A stretch of DNA of 64,000 nucleotides, taken from Geobacter sp. DSM 9736 (GTDB taxonomy: Bacteria > Desulfobacterota > Desulfuromonadia > Geobacterales > Geobacteraceae). The stretch covers positions 3,596,753 to 3,660,752 of the forward strand of contig NZ_LT896716.1 of assembly GCF_900187405.1 (NCBI RefSeq). Reading direction: 5' to 3'. The position numbers and the translations under genes are program-made. Below the pieces are notes generated by a model. That model searched no databases, was not told the origin of the DNA, and saw only the letters and a program-made list of their open reading frames with translations. Shown here piece by piece: positions 5,305-14,934 of this stretch (positions are counted from its first letter, which is position 1; each line of letters begins with the position of its first letter).

Positions 5305-6456
5305 ATGTTCGAATTTGATGAAAGCATTGACCAGAGCGCGAAGATCAAGGTTGTCGGCGTCGGAGGGGGCGGCGGCAACGCAATCAACACGATGATCGCC
5401 AGCGAGATTAACGGCATCGAGTTCATTGTGGCAAATACCGATGCCCAGGCGCTGCGGATGTCGAAGGCACCCGAAAAGATCCAGATCGGCGGGCAGCTCA
5501 CCAAGGGCCTTGGTGCCGGGGCGAACCCGAACGTCGGCCGTGACGCGGCCATGGAAGACCGGCAGAAGCTGGCGGAAGTCCTCAAGGGCTCCGACATGGT
5601 CTTTATCGCATGCGGAATGGGTGGCGGCACCGGTACCGGCGCTGCACCGGTCATTGCCGAAGCGGCCCGCGAGATCGGTGCGCTAACCGTCGGCGTCGTG
5701 ACCAAGCCATTCACACGCGAGGGGAAGCAGCGTCTGGCCAAGGCGGAAGAAGGGATCAGGGAGCTGAAGAAACACGTAGACTCCCTCATCGTGATCCCCA
5801 ACGACCGTCTCCTGGGCCTCGCCGGCAAGTCGATGTCCATAGTAGACGCCTTCAAGCCTTCCGATGACGTACTTCGCCAGGCCGTTCAGGGCATTTCGGA
5901 CCTGATCACCACCTCAGGCATGATCAACGTCGACTTTGCCGACGTGAAGGCGATCATGGGTGAGCGCGGGATGGCAATGATGGGAATCGGCCTCGGTGCC
6001 GGGGAAAACCGAGCCGTCGATGCGGCTACCCGCGCCATCTCCAGTCCGCTCCTGGAAGATATCGACATTTCGGGGGCCAGAGGCGTTCTCGTAAACATCA
6101 CCGGATCTTCCAGCATGACCATGGATGAATTCGATGCAGCCAGCCGTATCATCCACGAGAAGGTGCATGAGGATGCCAACATCATCGTCGGCCTCGTTAT
6201 CGACGAAAGTCTCGGCGAGCAGATCAAGGTAACCGCGATTGCAACCGGTTTCGGCGATCGGTTCGATATGGAGAGGCCCCGTGAAGAGGTGAAGAAGCCG
6301 ACTCCCTTCGTATCTCGTCAGGAAATCAACCGTGAGATACCGACATTCATCCGCGAGCGGAACCAGCGTGAGACCATGGTTCGGCAGCGGAGCTTCATGA
6401 TGGATGATGAGGAGCAATACGATATCCCAACGTTCCTCCGCAAGTCGGTCGATTAA
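5305..6456 (+). CDS. ftsZ: Cell division protein FtsZ
   Basis: Tubulin-like GTPase that forms the division ring. The 383-residue protein has the N-terminal [15 protein letters not shown], the tubulin signature [12 protein letters not shown] in the GTP site, and the synergy segment [11 protein letters not shown] that carries the catalytic aspartates. The C-terminal conserved tail YDIPTFLRK binds FtsA and ZipA-like partners. A GGGGGAAG ribosome site precedes the ATG. It ends the division operon: a repeat, a hairpin and an intrinsic terminator follow. Confidence 0.97.
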
Positions 6457-6461
6457 AGGAG

Positions 6462-6575
6462 ACGCCGCTTTTCGTCCAGCTCCGCGTTGCGTCTTCGTCG
6501 CTCCTTGTGCGGCGTAGCGCTGCTACGCCTCCGCGGGCTCCTTGCTGCGCCTTGATCTGAACGAAAATCGACGCT
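6462..6575. repeat. Palindromic intergenic repeat, copy B (divergent arms)
   Basis: Shares the central GCGTAGCGCTGCTACGCCTC with the other copies but has different outer arms (CTTTTCGTCCAG against CTGAACGAAAATCG). These arms still pair with each other, so the fold has been kept although the arm sequence changed. It lies just after the ftsZ stop. Confidence 0.7.
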
Positions 6576-6639
6576 CCTGCACCATTTTGGGTTGTTTCAG
6601 ACCAAAAAGCTTTTCTTTCCGCTTCCCCAAGCGTCAACC

Positions 6640-6660
6640 GGTGGCGGTTTAGCCGCCACC
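6640..6660 (+). other. Perfect 8-bp hairpin
   Basis: GGTGGCGG and CCGCCACC form a perfect stem around the loop TTTAG. No T-run follows, so it is not an intrinsic terminator by itself. It may act together with the terminator 13 bases downstream or protect the 3' end of the ftsZ transcript. Confidence 0.5.
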
Positions 6661-6672
6661 AAGGCTTTCAAT

Positions 6673-6714
6673 CCCCGGCCTCCATTCCCCCTCCAGGGGG
6701 CCGGGTCTTTTTTT
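6673..6714 (+). terminator. Rho-independent terminator of the mur/fts operon
   Basis: An outer stem CCCGG/CCGGG and an inner stem CCCCC/GGGGG are followed by a run of T. It is correctly placed and oriented to end the ftsZ transcript, and it marks the right edge of the conserved division cluster. Confidence 0.75.
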
Positions 6715-6716
6715 CT

Positions 6717-7057
6717 CCTTCCATTATTGAATTGCCCCATCACGTTGTACGTGCCGGCACCGCTCAATCTTCCTCTCACTGAATCTTAATAAATTCTTGT
6801 GAAAGTACTTCTCTAACGCTATCATCCCTGAAATTGTGCAGGCAAATGTCGAATCGGATTCGGAAATGGTTCATACATAAGGTCCATTTCCTGGAAATCC
6901 TTGTGCTAAATACATGGGCGGCCAGCGCTGACCAATTCCCCCTGGATTGCAAGAGGCAAAGCACTTTCAGGATCAAGCAAAGTTACAGGGTGGGCAAGTG
7001 GGATCGGCAAAAAGCGGTGGCGCTACTATATGGTGCTCTCGGGACAAGGCTGTAAAA
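6717..7057. other. Non-coding stretch at the left edge of the accessory region
   Basis: About 340 bases with no convincing gene. Short frames exist on both strands but have no ribosome sites, family resemblance or consistent codon use. Base composition becomes AT-rich here. No integrase, tRNA or insertion-sequence ends are recognisable. It may be decayed mobile DNA. Confidence 0.5.
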
Positions 7058-7184
7058 GCTTATAGTATTATAAACCTTGAAATGAGCCATCACCATGCAA
7101 GGTTTATAGATATAGAAATTTGGCAGGTTTATACATATATAAGCTTGTTTATAATAGTATAAACTTGTTTATAGATGTATAAAC
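7058..7184. promoter_or_regulatory. Array of 18-bp palindromes GYTTATA-N4-TATAARC
   Basis: Four clear copies start at 7058, 7127, 7147 and 7167. A degenerate fifth starts at 7102 (GTTTATA, four bases, TAGAAAT). The last three are exactly 20 bases apart, two helical turns, so a dimeric DNA-binding protein could load cooperatively on one face. A separate 11-bp inverted repeat (TATAAACCTTG at 7069-7079, CAAGGTTTATA at 7098-7108) overlaps the first two. The array ends 55 bases before the first cassette gene. The binding protein is not identified. Iterons or recombinase sites are alternatives. Confidence 0.6.
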
Positions 7185-7239
7185 CAGCCTCTAACTGCTC
7201 AATAACGAGTTGAGTGAATAAGTAAAGGAGAAGGTCAAG

Positions 7240-7728
7240 ATGAGTAAAGAAGCATCAGCGACGTTAATTGCTGCAGTCATTGCTGCTGTTGTGAGTGTAA
7301 TAACATTGGCAGGTACATTGGGCATTGGCTATTGGCAATCCACCCAACTCAGAAAAGATACTTTTCAACTTGCTGCATCTGAAAGGCGGCTGGAAGCGGC
7401 TCAAGGCTACTATAGAATCACCTTCAGGTGGATGCGCAATCAAAACAACCTTGATAAGTTGAAAAGAATCGAAAAAGAACTGGATGAATTTCATCAGTCG
7501 CATGCTTTATATCTTACGACTGAAGGTCGCAAAAGAATGAACGTGATAATTACTTCAATGTGGTCCATTACTCGTCCCAAAGGCAAGTTACTCCAAAATG
7601 ATGACTTGAAGCAGAAGGTCCTTGATGTTTCCAAGCATATTCCCTCCTTCCATGAAGAATTGATTAAAAGCGTGTGGCTAGAAATGGACCCAAGGGACAG
7701 TGAATTATACAAAATAAATGGTCTTTAA
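7240..7728 (+). CDS. Hypothetical protein with one N-terminal membrane helix (cassette 1)
   Basis: The 162-residue product begins with a membrane segment at about residues 8-30 (LIAAVIAAVVSVITLAGTLG) and continues as a charged, helical cytoplasmic or periplasmic domain with no motif I recognise. A strong AAAGGAG ribosome site lies upstream of the ATG. It is the first gene of the cassette array, directly downstream of the palindrome array that may control it, and an attC-like site begins 20 bases after its stop. Membrane-anchored small proteins of this kind are common integron-cassette cargo. The function is unknown. Confidence 0.7.
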   Translation: MSKEASATLIAAVIAAVVSVITLAGTLGIGYWQSTQLRKDTFQLAASERRLEAAQGYYRITFRWMRNQNNLDKLKRIEKELDEFHQSHALYLTTEGRKRMNVIITSMWSITRPKGKLLQNDDLKQKVLDVSKHIPSFHEELIKSVWLEMDPRDSELYKINGL

Positions 7729-7747
7729 ATGAACAAATAAAAAATAA

Positions 7748-7802
7748 TTCCAACCATCGGCAAGACCGGCCCGATGTGCCGGTCAGCCTCAGAACGTTGG
7801 GT
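7748..7802 (+). other. attC-like recombination site 1
   Basis: The 5' core TTCCAAC (one mismatch to RYYYAAC) and 3' core GTTGGGT (full match to GTTRRRY) are 55 bases end to end. The outer CCAAC pairs with GTTGG, then GGC pairs with GCC, then GACCGGC with GCCGGTC. This leaves the bulges typical of folded attC. Its inner arm is nearly the same as in site 3. Confidence 0.65.
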
Positions 7803-7822
7803 GATTAAAAGATGAGGGAACA

Positions 7823-8266
7823 ATGAGACATCTACTAGCCCTTTCAGCGTTGCCATTCTTACTTACCGCTTCCGCTTGCTCTGGAACTGCAATGAAGACA
7901 ATAAAAACAAAAGGGTGTGGAGGAATTACAGGGGGTTGTCGAGGGTACGAGATTCACAGCGATGGCACTGTTTTCCAGACACAAACTGAACTAAGTGATT
8001 TTGGACCAAAAGAAAAGAAAATAGAGATTTGTAAAGATCGTAAAATAGCAGACCTGCTTTTCGAGAAGCTAAATAAGATCAAGTTCACGGACATACAAAT
8101 GAACGAAGTCGAAAACATTACAACGTATATTTTGTTGGAGTCTGAGGGGCGCAGGCATGAAGTGTCGTGGTGGCAGAAGAATGAGTCGACAAAGGCCTTA
8201 GATGACTTTTGGGAAGAGGAGTTGCGACTTCTGCGAGAGTCTAATTGTTTGAACGGGCCACGGTAA
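7823..8266 (+). CDS. Hypothetical lipoprotein (cassette 2)
   Basis: The 147-residue product has a short signal peptide ending TASAC, a lipobox-like site with the lipidated cysteine at residue 19. A small mature domain follows, with a Gly/Cys-rich start (GCGGITGGCRGYEIHSDGTV) and a C-terminal helix. No known family is recognised, although the layout resembles small DUF6438-type lipoproteins; that comparison is only an impression. A GAGGGAAC ribosome site precedes the ATG. The gene starts 20 bases after attC-like site 1 and ends 6 bases before site 2, so it fills a whole cassette. Confidence 0.7.
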   Translation: MRHLLALSALPFLLTASACSGTAMKTIKTKGCGGITGGCRGYEIHSDGTVFQTQTELSDFGPKEKKIEICKDRKIADLLFEKLNKIKFTDIQMNEVENITTYILLESEGRRHEVSWWQKNESTKALDDFWEEELRLLRESNCLNGPR

Positions 8267-8272
8267 AGCGGC

Positions 8273-8335
8273 ATCCAACAAAGCGTGGCAGACAGTCTCC
8301 GCTACGCTCCGCAGCTGCACTCTCACCCGTTACCC
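8273..8335 (+). other. attC-like recombination site 2
   Basis: The 5' core ATCCAAC matches RYYYAAC fully. The 3' core GTTACCC is only a partial match to GTTRRRY. The interior shares TGGCAGAC and GCTGCAC with site 5 and can fold by pairing GCAG with CTGC. This is the weakest 3' core of the five, but the placement right after a gene fits. Confidence 0.55.
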
Positions 8336-8366
8336 TTAAAAGTAAATTAGAACCGGATGAGACTTT

Positions 8367-9011
8367 ATGACGTTTGCTGACATTTCATTCATTATCGGAG
8401 CCATTGTCGTCTATGGTATCTATGACATCTGTAAGAGCCAAAAAGCTAATGAAGCAAAAAGTAAAAAGGAGGCCGAACAGAAGGTAGCTCACGAGAAGTT
8501 CATGGTTGAGTATGAGGCAAAACAACGTGCAGCAATAAAGGAAACAAAATCTCATCAAGAAAGGCCAGACGACTGGGAGCTGAGGAAATCTTATATACTG
8601 AAGAGAGATGGCTACAAGTGTGTAAGGTGTGGAAGCTACCAGAACCTACACGTACACCACAAAATCCCCGTTTCGGCACGTCCAGATCACTCTGAAAATA
8701 ATCTGATTACTCTATGCATTCGATGCCACGGAGACCAAGGCGGACCAGGTCATAATAGCTTGGTGCCTATGTCTGTCGGTAAACAATGTAGCAAGTACAG
8801 CTTCCAGCAAATAAAGGGCAGAAAGGAATATAAGTGTGATTCCTGCGGCGGAAGGATTATAAGCGGACAGCACTCGTATAAAAAGAGCTATTGGTATCGA
8901 AGTGTTAAATACAGCTCAAACAAAATTCCAGACAATACAATTAGAATCTGTGAAGACTGTCTGTTGAGCTTCAATGATTATTCAGACAAAATCATGAGAC
9001 AACCTCGTTAG
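8367..9011 (+). CDS. Membrane-anchored HNH endonuclease (cassette 3, first gene)
   Basis: The 214-residue protein has an N-terminal membrane helix (about 3-22) and a charged coiled coil (about 25-65). An HNH nuclease domain follows: C85-x2-C88, VHHKIP with H97-H98, SENNLITLC with the asparagine, and C117-x2-C120-H121. A second zinc-ribbon-like part has C157-x2-C160 and C195-x2-C198. HNH domains of this type cut DNA and are frequent in restriction and phage-defence systems; a membrane anchor is unusual. The next gene follows 10 bases later without an attC between, so the two probably travel as one cassette. Confidence 0.8.
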   Translation: MTFADISFIIGAIVVYGIYDICKSQKANEAKSKKEAEQKVAHEKFMVEYEAKQRAAIKETKSHQERPDDWELRKSYILKRDGYKCVRCGSYQNLHVHHKIPVSARPDHSENNLITLCIRCHGDQGGPGHNSLVPMSVGKQCSKYSFQQIKGRKEYKCDSCGGRIISGQHSYKKSYWYRSVKYSSNKIPDNTIRICEDCLLSFNDYSDKIMRQPR

Positions 9012-9021
9012 AGGAGTTAAA

Positions 9022-9480
9022 ATGCCTGAAAAAAATATTTTGTATGCGCTCCTGGGATTTCTCGTCGGCCTAATCGGCTCGCTATTTATTGAACGCAGTA
9101 AGCAGACACGCCAAAGGATGGCGATACTTGATGTTGTAGAATGGCAGGTACAATCGTTGATCGATGCCTGTGGCGAGGCTGCTAAGAGAAAGCAATGGGA
9201 CTCATCCAATGTAGAGAGCTTCGCCAATTTTCTTCATGCAACGTATCTTCGGCAGCCAGACCTCGTGTTGGCGATTCGAACGATTGAAGGGCGACAAAAT
9301 CTAGCAAATGTCTACGCAGAGGTTACAGGACTCCTCGGGTTGATAACCTTTTACCGATCTGACGCTAGCAATGCATCTTCTGCAATTGGTCCTGGGACAT
9401 ATGAAGGATTCTCCGAACGCTGCGAAAGAGCGCTGGGATTGATCAGGCAGTCTCGGAGGCGCTGGCAAATCCTTGGCTAA
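9022..9480 (+). CDS. Hypothetical protein with one membrane helix (cassette 3, second gene)
   Basis: The 152-residue product has an N-terminal membrane segment (about 5-23, LYALLGFLVGLIGSLFIE) and a helical soluble domain rich in charged residues; no family is recognised. An AGAGGAG ribosome site precedes the ATG, which lies 10 bases after the HNH gene, so the two are co-transcribed. The stop codon lies inside the 5' core of attC-like site 3. It could be a partner or inhibitor of the membrane-bound HNH protein, but only the proximity suggests this. Confidence 0.65.
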   Translation: MPEKNILYALLGFLVGLIGSLFIERSKQTRQRMAILDVVEWQVQSLIDACGEAAKRKQWDSSNVESFANFLHATYLRQPDLVLAIRTIEGRQNLANVYAEVTGLLGLITFYRSDASNASSAIGPGTYEGFSERCERALGLIRQSRRRWQILG

Positions 9481-9533
9481 CCATCGGCAAGACCGGTCCA
9501 AAACCCGCCCGGTCAGCCTCAGCACCGTTGGGA
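9475..9533 (+). other. attC-like recombination site 3
   Basis: The 5' core GGCTAAC and 3' core GTTGGGA each have one mismatch to consensus. The inner arm CATCGGCAAGACCGG is shared with site 1, and GACCGG pairs with the downstream CCGGTC. The stop codon of the preceding gene is inside the 5' core. Confidence 0.62.
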
Positions 9534-9603
9534 GGAGAGATTTAAATTAAGGTGCGTATTAGGCTGGAGATTTGGTAAATGCCGCGGTAATCCTGAGGTG
9601 TGC

Positions 9604-10551
9604 ATGAGTATAAAACTATCAAAGGGTAAAAAAATGATTCCTGCAGGCTTCTGGCGACATATGTATAGTTTTTTGTTTTTAATTTTATTAGCATGTGCAC
9701 CTGTTTCTTTGGTGCTTGGTGCGGAATTAGATCCAAAGGAGACCCAAAAGGACCTTGCAGATGACAATCAGAGGAATCCTGGGAAAAAAGACGATCGAGA
9801 TGTGCCTAACGATTCGAGAAAGCTTAACGAACTAGCAGAGCTTAGCCGCACTCAAGGCCGTTACCTCCAGGCTGAGTCACTTTACAAACGGGCATTGGAA
9901 CTCTGTGAGCAGCTCGGGAAACCGGACAATCAAGTGTGTCAGGGCAGAGTTCTGAATAACCTCGGAGGCATGTACTACTCCCAGGGCCGATACAAGGAAG
10001 CCGAACCAATCTATAAACGCGCACTGGTGATAGGTGAAGCCGTACTTGGGTCAGAAAATCCCGAAGTTGCCACCACGCTGACCAATCTTGCGTCACTTTA
10101 TTCAGCTCAAGGCTCTCATGCCCAAGCAGAGCCAATATTTAGCCGTGCCTTAGCAATCACTGAAAAGGCACTCGGCCCAGAGCATACTGAAGTGGCTACA
10201 TGTCTAAACAACTTAGCACAACACCACATGTCCCAACGACATTATCAACAGGCGGATGTGCTTTTTAAACGTGCATTGGCTATTTATGAAAAGGCACTCG
10301 GTAGTTCGACTACTGAAGTCGGAATGATATTAAACAACCTTGCCACGCTATACGCTAACCAAAAACTATACTCAGAAGCTGAGCCACTCTATAACCGTGC
10401 ATTGGAAATTATCACTAAAAACCTTAATACCTCACATCCCTACCTCGCGTCTATATATGTAAATATGGCTGTTTTGTATAGATCAACGAACCGTGGAAAT
10501 TTAGCGATTCAGTTTGAGCGGCGCGCGGCAGTGATTCGTACAATGCAATGA
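9604..10551 (+). CDS. Secreted TPR-repeat protein (cassette 4)
   Basis: The 315-residue protein has an N-terminal signal or anchor sequence (about 18-38, YSFLFLILLACAPVSLVLG), then at least five tetratricopeptide repeats of the kinesin-light-chain (TPR_12) type, with 42-residue spacing. Typical repeats read AEPIYKRALVIGEAVLG and AEPIFSRALAITEKALG. Such repeats are protein-binding scaffolds. The ATG at 9604 is chosen for its GAGG site six bases upstream; GTG 9598 and ATG 9634 are alternatives. The gene lies between attC-like sites 3 and 4, directly before the WD40-GTPase cassette. TPR proteins often accompany NTPase-based conflict genes, but the export signal argues against direct contact. Confidence 0.75.
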   Translation: MSIKLSKGKKMIPAGFWRHMYSFLFLILLACAPVSLVLGAELDPKETQKDLADDNQRNPGKKDDRDVPNDSRKLNELAELSRTQGRYLQAESLYKRALELCEQLGKPDNQVCQGRVLNNLGGMYYSQGRYKEAEPIYKRALVIGEAVLGSENPEVATTLTNLASLYSAQGSHAQAEPIFSRALAITEKALGPEHTEVATCLNNLAQHHMSQRHYQQADVLFKRALAIYEKALGSSTTEVGMILNNLATLYANQKLYSEAEPLYNRALEIITKNLNTSHPYLASIYVNMAVLYRSTNRGNLAIQFERRAAVIRTMQ

Positions 10552-10587
10552 GGGCTGTGTCTAGTATTGAGAGCTAAGGCGAAGAAT

Positions 10588-10641
10588 TCCCAACCAGGCA
10601 GAAGCAGCGGCCTACGCCGCTGTTCTCCCGAGTCGTTGGAC
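10588..10641 (+). other. attC-like recombination site 4
   Basis: The 5' core TCCCAAC has one mismatch and the 3' core GTTGGAC fully matches GTTRRRY. The centre is a clean hairpin, CAGCGGC-ctac-GCCGCTG, and the outer CCAAC pairs with GTTGG. It lies 36 bases after the TPR gene. Confidence 0.65.
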
Positions 10642-10686
10642 TTTTGACTTCTATTGAAATAAATGAATACAAGATCAGTGTAGGAG

Positions 10687-13600
10687 ATGGGAATAGTGAC
10701 TACCAAAAATAAAATTAAAGGGCCGTTAGAAAGTGAAGACATTCAGTTCAATCTGCATGGCGTTAAATACGTGCAACCGCTACAAGGGCACATAGGGAGG
10801 ATTTGGCGCATCGCCTGGTCCCCAAATGGTCGAATCCTTGCGACACCTTCATCAGACAGAACAATTCGACTATGGAATACCGATACTGGTGAAGTGCTTC
10901 ATACGCTTGAGAGACACGGTAAAACTGTTACATGCGTGGCTTTTGACCCAGAAGGGCAGCTGTTAGCCAGCGGGAGTCAAGACTACACCGTTAAATTATG
11001 GGAAGTATCTAGCGGCCGATTGCTCCGCACCCTAAGAAGACATAAGGAGTCTATTTTTGATGTTGTTTTCGGGCCAAAAGGACAACTCGCTAGCTGTAGT
11101 ATGGACGGAAGCATCATACTCTGGGATATAGTAAGCGGACATGCAAATAAAGAAATGGATGTGAGCGATGGAGGTCTTATCGCGATAGCATTTGATCCGA
11201 ATAGCGGACTCTTGGCGTGCGGGGGGAACGGCGGTTCGGTAAGGATTTGGAATGATCAAGACAATACTTTACGTTCTTTTGAAGTAATTCCAAGTGGATT
11301 TGTGACAGGAATTGCATTTAGTCCTGATGGCAGCAAAATAGCGTGTGTTGGCAGCGAAGGAAATATTAGGCTTTTGGAAGTAGCAACAGGCCAACCTTTA
11401 CTCACCATAGAAGGGCACACTTCCGGTATTACATCCATAAAATTTTATGCCGATGGACAGCTGTTAGCTGCAAAAGGTTGGGACGGTGTTGTTACAGTTT
11501 CGCACTGTGATACAGGCGCTCTGCTTGCCAAAATACCTGCACCTACTGTAGGCACATCAAATCTTTCAGGCATTGCTTTTCATCCCCACATTCCCCTGTT
11601 AGCCACAGTCGCTTCAGCACCAGATACATCAGCAAAGTACGCAGACAGAGTAGTCAATATCTGGGAATTAGATGTCGGCTTGCTTCTCGGGCAAACCATA
11701 ATTCATAAAATTACTTATACAAGTGCCAAAGTTGTCTTAGTCGGTGAGAGTAATGTTGGTAAATCATATCTTGCCCATAGGATAGCAAACGGAACACCAC
11801 CAGAGGCAGGTGAAATCAAAAGCACACATGGCATGAAGTTTTGGCCACTGGATCCAGAACGTCTCTGTCCAACAGCAAAAGCCCCACTAGGCCAGCGACG
11901 AGATGTAGTAATATGGGATATGGGTGGGCAGGAAGAATATCGACTGATCCATCAGCTTTTCCTCCACGATACAACCGTTGCGCTTGTACTTTTTAACCCG
12001 ATTCGAGGAGTAACCTCATTCAAAGATGTGGAGACGTGGACTAAATACTTGGACAAACAACTTTCAGGCCGCGCTGCGATTAAACTACTCGTTGGAGCCC
12101 AAATAGATGAACCATGCAGCGTGATTGACAGTAATGCGGTTCAACGCCTCTGTTCAGAACACGGCTTTGCCGGTTATTTTGAGACTAGTGCCATCTCTGG
12201 AAGGGGTATACCTGAATTGTGCGTGGCAACGGCTAGAGCCATTAATTGGGAGAAACTCGGCCTGACTAGTCGCCCAGCACTTTTTCAGCTAATCCGTGAT
12301 TTTATAGAGACTAAGCGCAAGCAAGGCGATGTTATTCTTTATGTGGCTGACTTGCTTCGCCTCCTGGGAGACCAATTTTCATCAGAAGATGAAAAAAAAG
12401 CGGTTAATGCCGTAACTGATCAGCTTGCCACTCAGGGTGTAATTGCTCGCTCACGTGTTTCAACTGGTGAGCCAGTTCTGGTTCTGCAAGTTCAAGAAAT
12501 CGAGCGTTATGCCGGCTCGCTCATATTGGCTGCTCGCAATAACCCCCGTGGAGTGCCTGCGCTGGAACTGAGGGTTATCGCACAGGCTAACTTTTCGCTG
12601 CCAGGAATCGCAGAAGATGATCGGCTCCCGCGCAATCAAGAAAAACCAGTAATGGAATGTACTGTTCAGCTTATGCTAGAGCACGGCATATGTTTTGAGC
12701 ATGAGGGCTTGTTGATTTTTCCGACACTCTTCGCACCCACATCGTTTACAACAGGGCAAGAACTTCTTCATGCTGTGTCCCTCTATTATGATTTTGCTGG
12801 GGCAATCGACAATATTTACGCTTCGCTGGTAGCATGGCTGGTTCTTGCGCAGGACTTTGGTCGGGTGCGGTTATGGCCAGATCGAGCGGAGTTCGAAGTC
12901 AAGGATGGCGGCCTTTGTGGCTTACGTAAAGTCGGAAGGCCTGGTGGGTTTGCCCATGTGGACGTATATTTCGAGACTAACACACCCGAACACCTACGTA
13001 AGGAATTTATTGATTTTGTTGAGGATCATTTGGCAAGACATGGTGTGGAAATACAGGAGCACCTTGCGATTACCTGCCCCTGCGGACACAGGTTTGAAGA
13101 GGAAACTTTAAGGCAACGCATCGTTCGTGGTGACAAAGATGTGGGCTGCCCGGTTTGCGAACTGCGGCACAATCTGACTGAAGGTGCTGCAAAGGCTCGC
13201 GAGCGCGATCCAAAGATCAAACAACAAACGTGGGCACTAAGAACCAAAATAGAAAAACTCCGCGAAAAGTCAACGGAACAAGCGGTGCAAGTATTGGAAA
13301 CAGCAACTAAAACAGAGCATTCCTCAGGGCCAATTCGACTTTTGCACCTAAGCGACCTACATTTCGACGCGACTACCCCTGTTAAGGCACGATTGCAATG
13401 GTTGCTAGATGACCTTAAACAAGATGGCGGCATTGATTTCGAGGAACTTGACTATCTCGTCATTACCGGAGATTTTACTGATAAAGCCTGTGCAGAGGGC
13501 TTTGAGAAGGCATATGATTTCGCATCTCAGCTTGCTCAAGAGTTCAGCTTATCCGCTGAGCGATGTGTTTTTGTGCCGGGCAATCATGACGTGACTGACC

Positions 13601-14352
13601 TTGTAGATGCATACTCTCGTAGGAAGGATAGCGCGGGACTGAATGATGGCGAATGGATGCAGGAGGGGAGAATTGTGCTCGCCCGTGATCCGCAAAAGTA
13701 CCCGCTGCGCTTTAAACCATTTTCCGATGGGTTTTTCCACAAGTTCCTTCAACGACCCTATCCTACTGACTTTTCCGAACAAGGCATGTGTATTCCTTTC
13801 TGGGAGTCGGGTATCCAATTTTTGGCACTTAATTCATGTTGGCAGATTGATGAGTTCCATAGAAAGCGCTCGGGTATTAACGTGGAGGCCATAGCACGGG
13901 CCGTCAATATGGCTCAAAAGCAGGAGAATGAAGCACGGGAATCAGGGCAACTTGTTCCGGATAAACCCCTTTTGCGTATTGCGTTGTTCCACCATGCGGT
14001 TGCAGGCGCGGAGCAAATGAAAGACTTGGATTTTCTTGGTAATTTGCAAAAGAATGGCATCAAATTGATACTTCATGGTGATGTACATAAAATGCATCGT
14101 GACCAAATCGGATATTGGCACGAGAAGAGAATGCATGTAGTAGGTTCTGGAAGCTTCGGCGCACGAGCAGTGGACCGACCAGAGGCATCGCCGCGGTTGT
14201 ACAATGCTATCGAAATTAGTCGCGATTTAAGCAGTGCTCGAGTGCATACAAGGCAGCAAACCAAGCCGGACGGCCCATGGGATGGATGGTATGAATGGCC
14301 TGACCCAGATGGCGGCAAGGGACGCCTACCATATTATGACATCAAGTTTTGA
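10687..14352 (+). CDS. WD40 / Ras-like GTPase (ROC-type) / zinc ribbon / calcineurin-like phosphoesterase fusion
   Basis: A 1221-residue multidomain protein. Residues about 33-330 are WD40 repeats (RLWNTDTG, VKLWEVSSG, VRIWND). Residues about 347-520 are a Ras-like/ROC GTPase: P-loop GESNVGKS 353-360, switch-2 WDMGGQEE 410-417, a degenerate G4 (AQID 471-474) and G5 ETSAISGRG. A winged-helix-like region (about 530-605) and further helical domains follow. A zinc ribbon has CPCGH 797-801 and CPVC 821-824, then a short coiled coil. Residues about 883-1170 are a metallophosphoesterase with an intact metal site: D890, H892, D929, GNHD 965-968, H1102-H1103 and HGDVH 1130-1134. WD40 sensor, GTPase switch and hydrolase effector suggest a conflict/defence protein; this is inference. 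The start is uncertain (ATG 10687 or GTG 10696). Confidence 0.85.
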   Translation: MGIVTTKNKIKGPLESEDIQFNLHGVKYVQPLQGHIGRIWRIAWSPNGRILATPSSDRTIRLWNTDTGEVLHTLERHGKTVTCVAFDPEGQLLASGSQDYTVKLWEVSSGRLLRTLRRHKESIFDVVFGPKGQLASCSMDGSIILWDIVSGHANKEMDVSDGGLIAIAFDPNSGLLACGGNGGSVRIWNDQDNTLRSFEVIPSGFVTGIAFSPDGSKIACVGSEGNIRLLEVATGQPLLTIEGHTSGITSIKFYADGQLLAAKGWDGVVTVSHCDTGALLAKIPAPTVGTSNLSGIAFHPHIPLLATVASAPDTSAKYADRVVNIWELDVGLLLGQTIIHKITYTSAKVVLVGESNVGKSYLAHRIANGTPPEAGEIKSTHGMKFWPLDPERLCPTAKAPLGQRRDVVIWDMGGQEEYRLIHQLFLHDTTVALVLFNPIRGVTSFKDVETWTKYLDKQLSGRAAIKLLVGAQIDEPCSVIDSNAVQRLCSEHGFAGYFETSAISGRGIPELCVATARAINWEKLGLTSRPALFQLIRDFIETKRKQGDVILYVADLLRLLGDQFSSEDEKKAVNAVTDQLATQGVIARSRVSTGEPVLVLQVQEIERYAGSLILAARNNPRGVPALELRVIAQANFSLPGIAEDDRLPRNQEKPVMECTVQLMLEHGICFEHEGLLIFPTLFAPTSFTTGQELLHAVSLYYDFAGAIDNIYASLVAWLVLAQDFGRVRLWPDRAEFEVKDGGLCGLRKVGRPGGFAHVDVYFETNTPEHLRKEFIDFVEDHLARHGVEIQEHLAITCPCGHRFEEETLRQRIVRGDKDVGCPVCELRHNLTEGAAKARERDPKIKQQTWALRTKIEKLREKSTEQAVQVLETATKTEHSSGPIRLLHLSDLHFDATTPVKARLQWLLDDLKQDGGIDFEELDYLVITGDFTDKACAEGFEKAYDFASQLAQEFSLSAERCVFVPGNHDVTDLVDAYSRRKDSAGLNDGEWMQEGRIVLARDPQKYPLRFKPFSDGFFHKFLQRPYPTDFSEQGMCIPFWESGIQFLALNSCWQIDEFHRKRSGINVEAIARAVNMAQKQENEARESGQLVPDKPLLRIALFHHAVAGAEQMKDLDFLGNLQKNGIKLILHGDVHKMHRDQIGYWHEKRMHVVGSGSFGARAVDRPEASPRLYNAIEISRDLSSARVHTRQQTKPDGPWDGWYEWPDPDGGKGRLPYYDIKF

Positions 14353-14385
14353 ATTTCTTTGTAGGCGCTAACTCAAAATAAAAAT

Positions 14386-14438
14386 GTCCAACAATCGGTG
14401 GCAGACGGACAAGCCGCTGCACCTCATGCCCGTTGAAT
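14386..14438 (+). other. attC-like recombination site 5
   Basis: The best match of the five: 5' core GTCCAAC and 3' core GTTGAAT both fit RYYYAAC and GTTRRRY exactly. The interior pairs GCAG-A-CGG with CCGCTGC, leaving one unpaired A, as in the extrahelical bases of known attC sites. It follows the WD40-GTPase gene and precedes the next gene by 16 bases. Confidence 0.7.
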
Positions 14439-14454
14439 AAATAAAAGGAGATGA

Positions 14455-14934
14455 ATGAAAAAATTGGTTATGCTTTTGATTATGGCGTCAACGTCAATCG
14501 CAGGTTGTGCAAGAGATTCAGGAGTCGTTCTAGCGAGAGACAGTAAGTCTTTATTTGATGATGCTGTTTGCTCATTTGAAACTAAAACACTCGCAGAGGA
14601 TACAAGTGGTAGTGAGCAGTACAGAGTTTATCAGCAAGGAGCAACTGGCTTTGTTCCCCCGAGCGTTGTTCGAGAAGAAGTTTATCGGCAAGCACTAAAG
14701 TACTGTGAAAACACAGGAAAAGCATTAAAAATACTAAAAGAAACAGCACCGCCATATCAGTATGGCTGCTACCCAAAAGCAGAATTAATTTTTGTCTGCC
14801 TTCCAAAATCGAACTCACCCGGATCAGAAGATCTACTCTACACCAGGCTTACAAACCTAAAGAAACTTTTGGATAACGGCACTATAACAAAAGAGGAGTT
14901 CGAACAACAAAAAGAAAGAATTTTCAAACAATGA
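14455..14934 (+). CDS. Lipoprotein with C-terminal SHOCT-like segment
   Basis: The 159-residue product has a signal peptide with lipobox SIAGC (cysteine 18). The mature domain has several cysteines (FDDAVCSFETK, LKYCENTG, YQYGCYPK, LIFVCLPK). The C-terminal segment LKKLLDNGTITKEEFEQQK matches the SHOCT pattern, a short oligomerisation motif. An AAAAGGAGATGA ribosome site precedes the ATG, 16 bases after attC-like site 5. No attC-like element is visible downstream, so this is either the last, incomplete cassette or the first gene outside the array. The function is unknown. Confidence 0.72.
   Translation: MKKLVMLLIMASTSIAGCARDSGVVLARDSKSLFDDAVCSFETKTLAEDTSGSEQYRVYQQGATGFVPPSVVREEVYRQALKYCENTGKALKILKETAPPYQYGCYPKAELIFVCLPKSNSPGSEDLLYTRLTNLKKLLDNGTITKEEFEQQKERIFKQ

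Follow-up and report, generated by a model that had tools for sequence, protein, structure and literature searches.

Phased palindromes beside attI as a putative binding array for a small protein encoded by a clade of chromosomal integrons

Palindromes, attI and cassettes in the window

The window, by which we mean the whole stretch of 64,000 nucleotides of Geobacter sp. DSM 9736 analysed here, contains, all on its forward (+) strand, a group of 18-bp palindromes, an attachment site and a chain of cassettes. The palindromes follow the pattern GYTTATA-N4-TATAARC, which a pattern search finds exactly at positions 7058-7075, 7127-7144, 7147-7164 and 7167-7184, together with a weaker copy (two mismatches) at 7102-7119. 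The three copies closest to the cassettes have a period of exactly 20 bp. Placed relative to the attI described below, these three sites lie at -65, -45 and -25; the copies at 7102 and 7058 keep to the same register, standing at -90 and -134 respectively, and 45 bp separate the start of the nearest palindrome from the end of the crossover GTT. When up to two mismatches are allowed, the window contains six matches, to be compared with a mean of 0.13 and a maximum of 2 in 100 shuffles; the sixth, at 9675, looks like a chance occurrence. The tandem palindromes with a 20-bp period that an earlier note had described from the letters of this DNA are therefore real, in four exact copies and a weak one.

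In the genome, a single contig of 3.96 Mb, the exact pattern occurs at six places, all of them in three clusters, one in the window and two others at 346 kb and 2.61 Mb, while a reversed control pattern has no exact match at all. At up to two mismatches the pattern is found at 21 places (five in the window, five at 346 kb, four at 2.61 Mb and seven scattered) and the reversed control at 23, so that single matches are meaningless at this level and clustering alone counts. The many random copies that would have undone the earlier note are thus not what this genome contains. A chance AT-rich repeat was discarded on the combined basis of the shuffles and of this comparison with the reversed control, and a tRNA-linked island was discarded as well, the window being devoid of any tRNA.

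Each of the three clusters is directly followed by one and the same sequence, TAACTGCTCAATNACGAGTTG, the first base of which is 25 bp past the point where the nearest palindrome starts. At least seven relatives carry it some 1 kb away from a divergent match to the integron integrase IntI (the model TIGR02249 scored above its cut-off in 27 of 58 genomes), and we read it for this reason as the attI of a clade of chromosomal integrons. Its core in the window, TAACTGCTCAATAACGAGTTG, occupies positions 7192-7212, with the crossover placed inside the GTT at 7209-7211, where the cassettes begin; the window therefore possesses the attI expected of a complete integron. Iterons, which the earlier note had also envisaged, receive no support here, the arrays being part of integron heads on the chromosome.

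Every cassette of the window begins at a GTT. The first (7209-7795; ORF 7240-7728) has its attC at about 7748-7798, a hairpin located through its resemblance to the attC at 9475; its R''/R' pairing, 5/7, is at background, as 6 of the 9 AAC 7-mers of this cassette reach that value. Pairing is better in cassettes 2 to 5, where it amounts to six or seven of seven: cassette 2 (7796-8328; ORF 7823-8266, attC 8273-8331) pairs at 7/7 with G-T counted, the best of 9; cassette 3 (8329-9526; attC 9475-9529), with an HNH ORF at 8367-9011 (match E 4.9e-8) followed by an ORF at 9022-9480, at 6/7, the best of 15; cassette 4 (9527-10634; TPR ORF 9598-10551, attC 10588-10637) at 7/7, reached by 2 of 25; and cassette 5 (10635-14431; ORF 10687-14352, attC 14386-14434) at 7/7, reached by 3 of 57. 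Cassette 6 (14432-14934; SHOCT ORF 14455-14934), where no attC was seen by eye, is the last that we recognised. At the sister heads (346 kb and 2.61 Mb) the R'' box is, by eye, perfectly complementary. The gene at 7240, put forward in the earlier note as the one whose transcription might respond to the palindromes, does exist as an open reading frame, and is that of the first cassette. Two cassette products deserve a comment in passing. The HNH protein of cassette 3 has a local similarity to the HNH region of IscB (NCBIfam E 2.5e-9, far under the cut-off), and the product of cassette 5, which combines WD40 repeats with a Roc/Ras-like GTPase, is large for a cassette with its 1221 residues, its C-terminal part looking, by eye, like a metallophosphoesterase.

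A cluster of attC sites devoid of an integron integrase is called a CALIN. The window contains more than two attC sites and no neighbouring intI: the best TIGR02249 score in the whole genome is 88.6 bits, against a cut-off of 265, and a search for a relic of IntI upstream of the array, at 6301-7300, gave nothing (best E 0.96). Judged from its sequence, the locus is the head of an integron without an integrase, or a CALIN in which attI has been preserved. It shares with a CALIN the chain of attC cassettes and the absence of a detectable intI in this genome, and differs from it in that it has retained attI and an array of five sites; moreover, there are three such heads in one genome.

The protein module of the clade and its fate in this genome

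Integrons are usually described as an assembly of intI, attI, the cassette promoter Pc and cassettes. In the complete integrons of the present clade, intI is followed by a divergent ORF of about 115 codons (hereafter the sORF), then by the array of 18-bp palindromes, attI and the cassettes. In listings made without imposed spacing, the palindromes recur at about -25, -45, -65, -90, -134 and sometimes -177 from attI. Their half-sites vary from integron to integron (GTTTATA, GCATMTA, GCATCYY, GTTACCT, GTTCCY or CYATMTA), the type being mostly uniform inside one array, with some arrays mixed.

A scan of genome contigs retrieved 275 relatives of the sORF, of which the best 80 were taken further; among these 80 the titles extend beyond Geobacteraceae to Nitrospirae, Rokubacteria, Acidobacteria, Chloroflexi and others, many of them metagenome-assembled genomes. 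Within the family and order of the window, 46 of 58 genomes match the sORF at E<=0.001 when fragments are counted. An even sampling of the phylum yielded matches at E<=1e-20 in 9 of 297 genomes, five of these from the window's own order, and another phylum sample gave 11 of 297 at E<=1e-15. Viral contigs yielded a single relative, 55 residues long. At four loci (L085, L086, L090, L091) we noted attachment-like sites of a different look, with GAACYGSTCAATNANGAGTTG after a sequence like CACGCGCGCGT; GTTTATA-type palindromes were neither listed nor seen by eye there.

As for the protein itself, none of the three sORFs scanned scored above the cut-off of any Pfam or NCBIfam model. One that came near is DUF5710 (PF18974), which resembles the sORF stretch GGRWDxxxKLWxVPYG (E 1.3e-5 to 2.4e-4) and gave 22.8, 21.2 and 25.2 bits in the three sORFs, under the curated cut-off of 26.5. 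A literature search on DUF5710 brought up an Acinetobacter paper and led no further. The predicted structure is confident (pLDDT 92, pTM 0.57), with a beta-strand at the N-terminus, residues 2-7. A fold search found nothing at E<=0.001, the best score with VIA being Z 4.0, and its weak rows were NrdR-like and ferredoxin-like parts; a sequence search of the PDB with the sORF alignment returned no match up to E 10. NrdR calls for attention because its boxes are tandem AT-rich palindromes. It is, like the sORF product, a small protein, and its zinc-ribbon part is weakly resembled by sORF residues 1-47 (Foldseek probability 0.77, Z about 3); the sORF consensus, however, is devoid of CxxC pairs, has no significant match in sequence or fold, and goes with sites that are tied to attI. 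The IntI of the clade has a peculiarity of its own (L042, L094 and others): about 90 additional residues at the N-terminus, predicted to form a four-helix domain with a pLDDT of 83-95 over residues 1-90, with a sub-threshold match to Phage_int_SAM_4 (E 0.0056), after which comes a stretch of low confidence.

The sORF and the extension of IntI tend to go together. Where more than 600 nt are available upstream, the sORF is present at 15 of the 18 loci with an N-extended IntI (partial at L053), and it is found at none of the six loci with a short IntI and more than 1.4 kb upstream; this count omits L054 (219 nt upstream), L032 (51 nt) and the incomplete L057, L059 and L061, and keeps L040 apart, a locus where the sORF is present although the extension of IntI is not in frame. 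The three extended-IntI loci that are without the sORF (L044, L051, L055) have no array above shuffles in the roughly 1 kb examined, and L051 keeps an attI-like site. One of the short-IntI controls, L035, exceeded its 20 shuffles by little (19.0 against 18.5) and had no palindromes centred on AT or TA.

Conversely, 71 sORF loci offer 2.3 kb or more of upstream sequence; the sORF stands beside IntI in 39 of them, and in the other 32 there is no IntI within 2.5 kb (L155 has too little upstream sequence to judge IntI). Two pairs of sORF loci of the latter kind gave dN/dS ratios of 0.09 and 0.19, the pair L133-L137 being left out as misaligned. The sORF thus seems to be under purifying selection without an adjacent IntI, which suggests either that it stays useful there or that it serves an IntI in trans.

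In Geobacter sp. DSM 9736 the protein that would match the window array is decayed. Upstream of the window array, a possible remnant of the C-terminal part of the sORF, with a stop inside, lies at 6879-7064 (+); the match is weak (tblastn E 0.025 in a database of five sequences), and its place and strand are right. The copy at 346 kb, the one of the matching type, is devoid of the first 17-18 residues, the 3.82-Mb copy is broken into two frames, and that at 19 kb appears to be intact, belongs to another specificity class (MKAHK) and goes with a GTTCCT-like array that is barely above shuffles. From this inventory of copies, the GTTTATA arrays would have no evident reader in this organism, the sORF of the matching type having apparently decayed. 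The earlier note had stated that no nearby gene is known to use the site: this holds for the window, where what persists of the cognate gene is a doubtful fragment at best, and fails in relatives, where that gene is directly upstream of the array. A recent loss of the reader is the simplest account for arrays that have been kept, and the window array is probably a relic, or unserved. The array at 346 kb has its sites at -25, -62, -87, -130 and -175, departing from the usual offsets at -62, -87 and -130. We also noted a fourth integron head at 3817400-3817893 (L216), made of the split sORF, of the KSRLN class, a palindrome of the GCATCCT type and an attI-like site.

Helical phase of the array and covariation with the sORF

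Arrays were accepted against shuffles put through the same chain search, which retained 73 of 95 distinct sORFs and found no array above shuffles for the other 22. Of the 73 arrays, 53 allowed the right half of attI to be located with at most four mismatches, and 20 did not. In 41 of these 53 loci the start of the nearest palindrome is 43-45 bp from the crossover GTT, as in the window (45), and in six it is 35 bp, which is one helical turn less; the remaining six have other distances, at least some of which are spurious matches. The 20/20/25 spacing is found in 46 of the 73 arrays, a figure to which the method itself contributes in part, the chain search being built to find palindromes at 0/20/40/65 with a tolerance of one base. 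The searches for arrays at the 73 loci and at distant loci scored palindromes higher when AT or TA stood at their centre; in a search without this preference, 140 of 208 palindromes had TA or AT as their two central bases, which fits recognition of the duplex by a symmetric dimer.

The array sequence follows the sORF, not IntI. Over 52 loci, the distance between palindromes correlates with that between sORFs with r=0.50, a value reached by none of 2000 permutations. This set is made of the 47 loci with a chain score of at least 19.5, minus L073, plus six of lower score added by hand (L041, L045, L046, L115, L149, L105), and the sORF alignment holds 65 of the 80 loci, L105 being out (stop in the stated range), L131 and L148 also removed, and 12 others never included, mostly because they were cut or near-duplicate. 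At the 20 loci where both genes are present, r is 0.59 for the sORF, 0.11 for the N-terminal extension of IntI and 0.06 for its core.

Once overall similarity is accounted for, the sORF columns that best explain the palindrome are those of residues 5 and 4. Both lie in the predicted N-terminal beta-strand, the candidate reader of the bases. Residue 5 obeys a simple rule: leucine goes with A at base 3 of the half-site, and any other residue with T. The rule holds at all 52 discovery loci; over the 73 loci, leucine goes with A in 42 of 42 and non-leucine with T in 28 of 31, the exceptions being L145, L207 and L204, the last of which may be a register error. Held-out loci, which number 28, or 25 under the strict definition, gave for these 25 10/10 with leucine and 12/15 without. 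Six distant loci with clear arrays agree as well (two with leucine, four without), and two single palindromes go against the rule, at L257, where Val accompanies A, and at L269, where Lys accompanies G, both loci having failed the array test.

Shared ancestry has to be considered here. When the first ten columns are left out in building the tree, eight changes of residue 5 are found on it. Among the supported independent pairs (n=5), 4.8 on average change in the same direction and none in the opposite one, on a tree that included the six distant loci chosen for clear arrays, L257 and L269 being cases that would count against the rule; the best result among 77 control columns was 3.2 in the same direction and 6.8 unchanged. 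The sign test on these supported pairs gives p=0.06, because independent pairs are few. At three loci (L226, L227, L211), sORFs starting with MKAYG may accompany half-sites of the GTCAC type, with C at base 3, a pairing that would extend the code of residue 5; these arrays are not resolved by the chain test, and L227 is scored as T with 3 of 8 half-sites.

A possible role at attI

Taken together, these data make it reasonably probable that a dimeric DNA-binding protein, the sORF product encoded by the clade itself, has its binding array in the palindromes and forms a phased complex at attI. The earlier note had seen in the regular spacing a pointer to cooperative binding of a dimeric protein, and comparison of sequences argues for an ordered binding of this kind: position is kept across integrons, helical phase is kept with attI, and the palindrome changes in step with residue 5 of a single small protein. 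Two subunits would bind each palindrome, their N-terminal strands reading its outer bases, and four to six dimers aligned on one face of the helix would build a nucleoprotein complex abutting attI. Such a complex might then help or gate the IntI-mediated insertion of cassettes, as an accessory device akin to arm-type sites, and each sORF might act mainly on its own array. Two facts sit uneasily with this reading. The arrays are well kept in Geobacter sp. DSM 9736 although both reader and integrase are gone, and sORF loci without IntI, with their low dN/dS, do not fit a role that purely serves IntI, unless IntI acts in trans.

The main competing explanation holds that the sORF product is a regulator of transcription from the cassette promoter, the array being its operator with no part in recombination. 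The persistence of the sORF under low dN/dS away from IntI is what such a regulator would display; in Vibrio cholerae Pc sits just upstream of attI (PMC3948777), and the window array does hold one promoter-like match (10/12). Over the 73 arrays, however, promoter-like matches are no better than in shuffles, and the phase is kept relative to the crossover, shifts of one turn included. Finally, 65 of the 73 loci are devoid of matching sites near the promoters of intI and the sORF, which counts against a control of intI and less so against a control of Pc; the 42 extra sites found outside arrays belong to eight loci, 40 of them to six loci where arrays are poorly defined. We see regulation of Pc as possible and rather doubtful. 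A LexA-like operator of intI receives no backing, as there is no intI in the genome of the window and no matching site outside the array over the stretch covered at each of those 65 loci; control of the intI promoter through the palindromes was rejected on this latter ground.

It might also be imagined that IntI itself binds the palindromes through its extra N-terminal four-helix domain, the sORF being a bystander. The clade IntI does have this SAM-like domain, and the class 1 site attI1 carries the additional sites DR1 and DR2 (PMC8946536). The palindromes, though, track neither the extension nor the core of IntI, L051 combines an extended IntI and an attI-like site with no array found, and arrays accompany the sORF where no IntI is adjacent; we consider this highly improbable, and IntI was rejected as the reader of the palindromes on the contrast between its coefficients (0.06-0.11) and that of the sORF (0.59). 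Hairpins formed by single strands, of the attC kind or linked to replication, are just as hard to credit: the palindromes are inverted repeats and lie beside a recombination site that reacts with a single-stranded partner, but the two bases of the would-be loop are TA or AT in most of them, and the phase with attI and the covariation with one protein residue are better explained by recognition of a duplex. That we are facing a functionless low-complexity repeat, suggested by the AT-rich type of palindrome in the window and by the loss of the matching genes in its genome, has a negligible probability in view of the chance expectation given above and of the same arrangement recurring across phyla with different sequences, some of them containing G+C.

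If we return to the sORF product as the occupant of a phased complex at attI, the nearest familiar image is attP of phage lambda, with its arm-type sites and accessory proteins (Int/Xis/IHF). The likeness lies in a core site for a tyrosine recombinase flanked by phased accessory sites, putative in our case; the difference is that here there is one type of palindrome, on one side only, and a protein of no named family. In class 1 integrons, DR1 and DR2 are described as supplementary integrase sites, suggested to act as topological filters and favouring attI1 x attC (PMC8946536). They resemble the present array as extra binding repeats beside attI, and differ from it as direct repeats meant for the integrase, whereas we have four to six palindromes that differ from one integron to the next and track a small protein distinct from the integrase. 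GInts (GinABCD) also associate tyrosine recombinases with a small extra gene, the four genes being reported as essential for recombination; they are genomic islands without attI or attC cassettes, their GinD is reported to be TnpC-like, and the term palindrome is absent from the text (PMC5385486). In the open-licence literature searched, which included PMC2426708, PMC3108266, PMC8946536, PMC5385486, PMC8618304 and PMC9668308, we found no integron-encoded protein with such a palindrome array, and the present module would, as far as its sequences tell, be an integron variant whose protein is named by no Pfam or NCBIfam model above cut-off.

The matter bears on the suspicion that at least one chromosomal integrase needs accessory proteins. 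In Escherichia coli, the IntIA integrase of V. cholerae is 2000-fold less efficient in the attIA x attC reaction, and such proteins are suspected (PMC8946536). Here a whole clade encodes a candidate accessory factor next to attI, with an array that can be read, and this makes the question directly testable. One may go further, and quite tentatively propose a third core component of the integrons of Geobacteraceae and relatives: the specificity of the sORF product would drift together with the array of its attI along a residue-to-base code, so that several heads in one genome would be kept orthogonal, each serviced by its own protein alone in a way reminiscent of incompatibility or immunity, and this protein would be the suspected accessory factor. 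On the practical side, the pair formed by sORF and array is a compact protein-DNA recognition code for study, and it may be used as a marker for integron heads missed by searches based on the integrase. As a last observation, five arrays (L111, L161, L170, L149, L151) mix GTTT and GCAT half-sites, and these are possible intermediates in a change of specificity.
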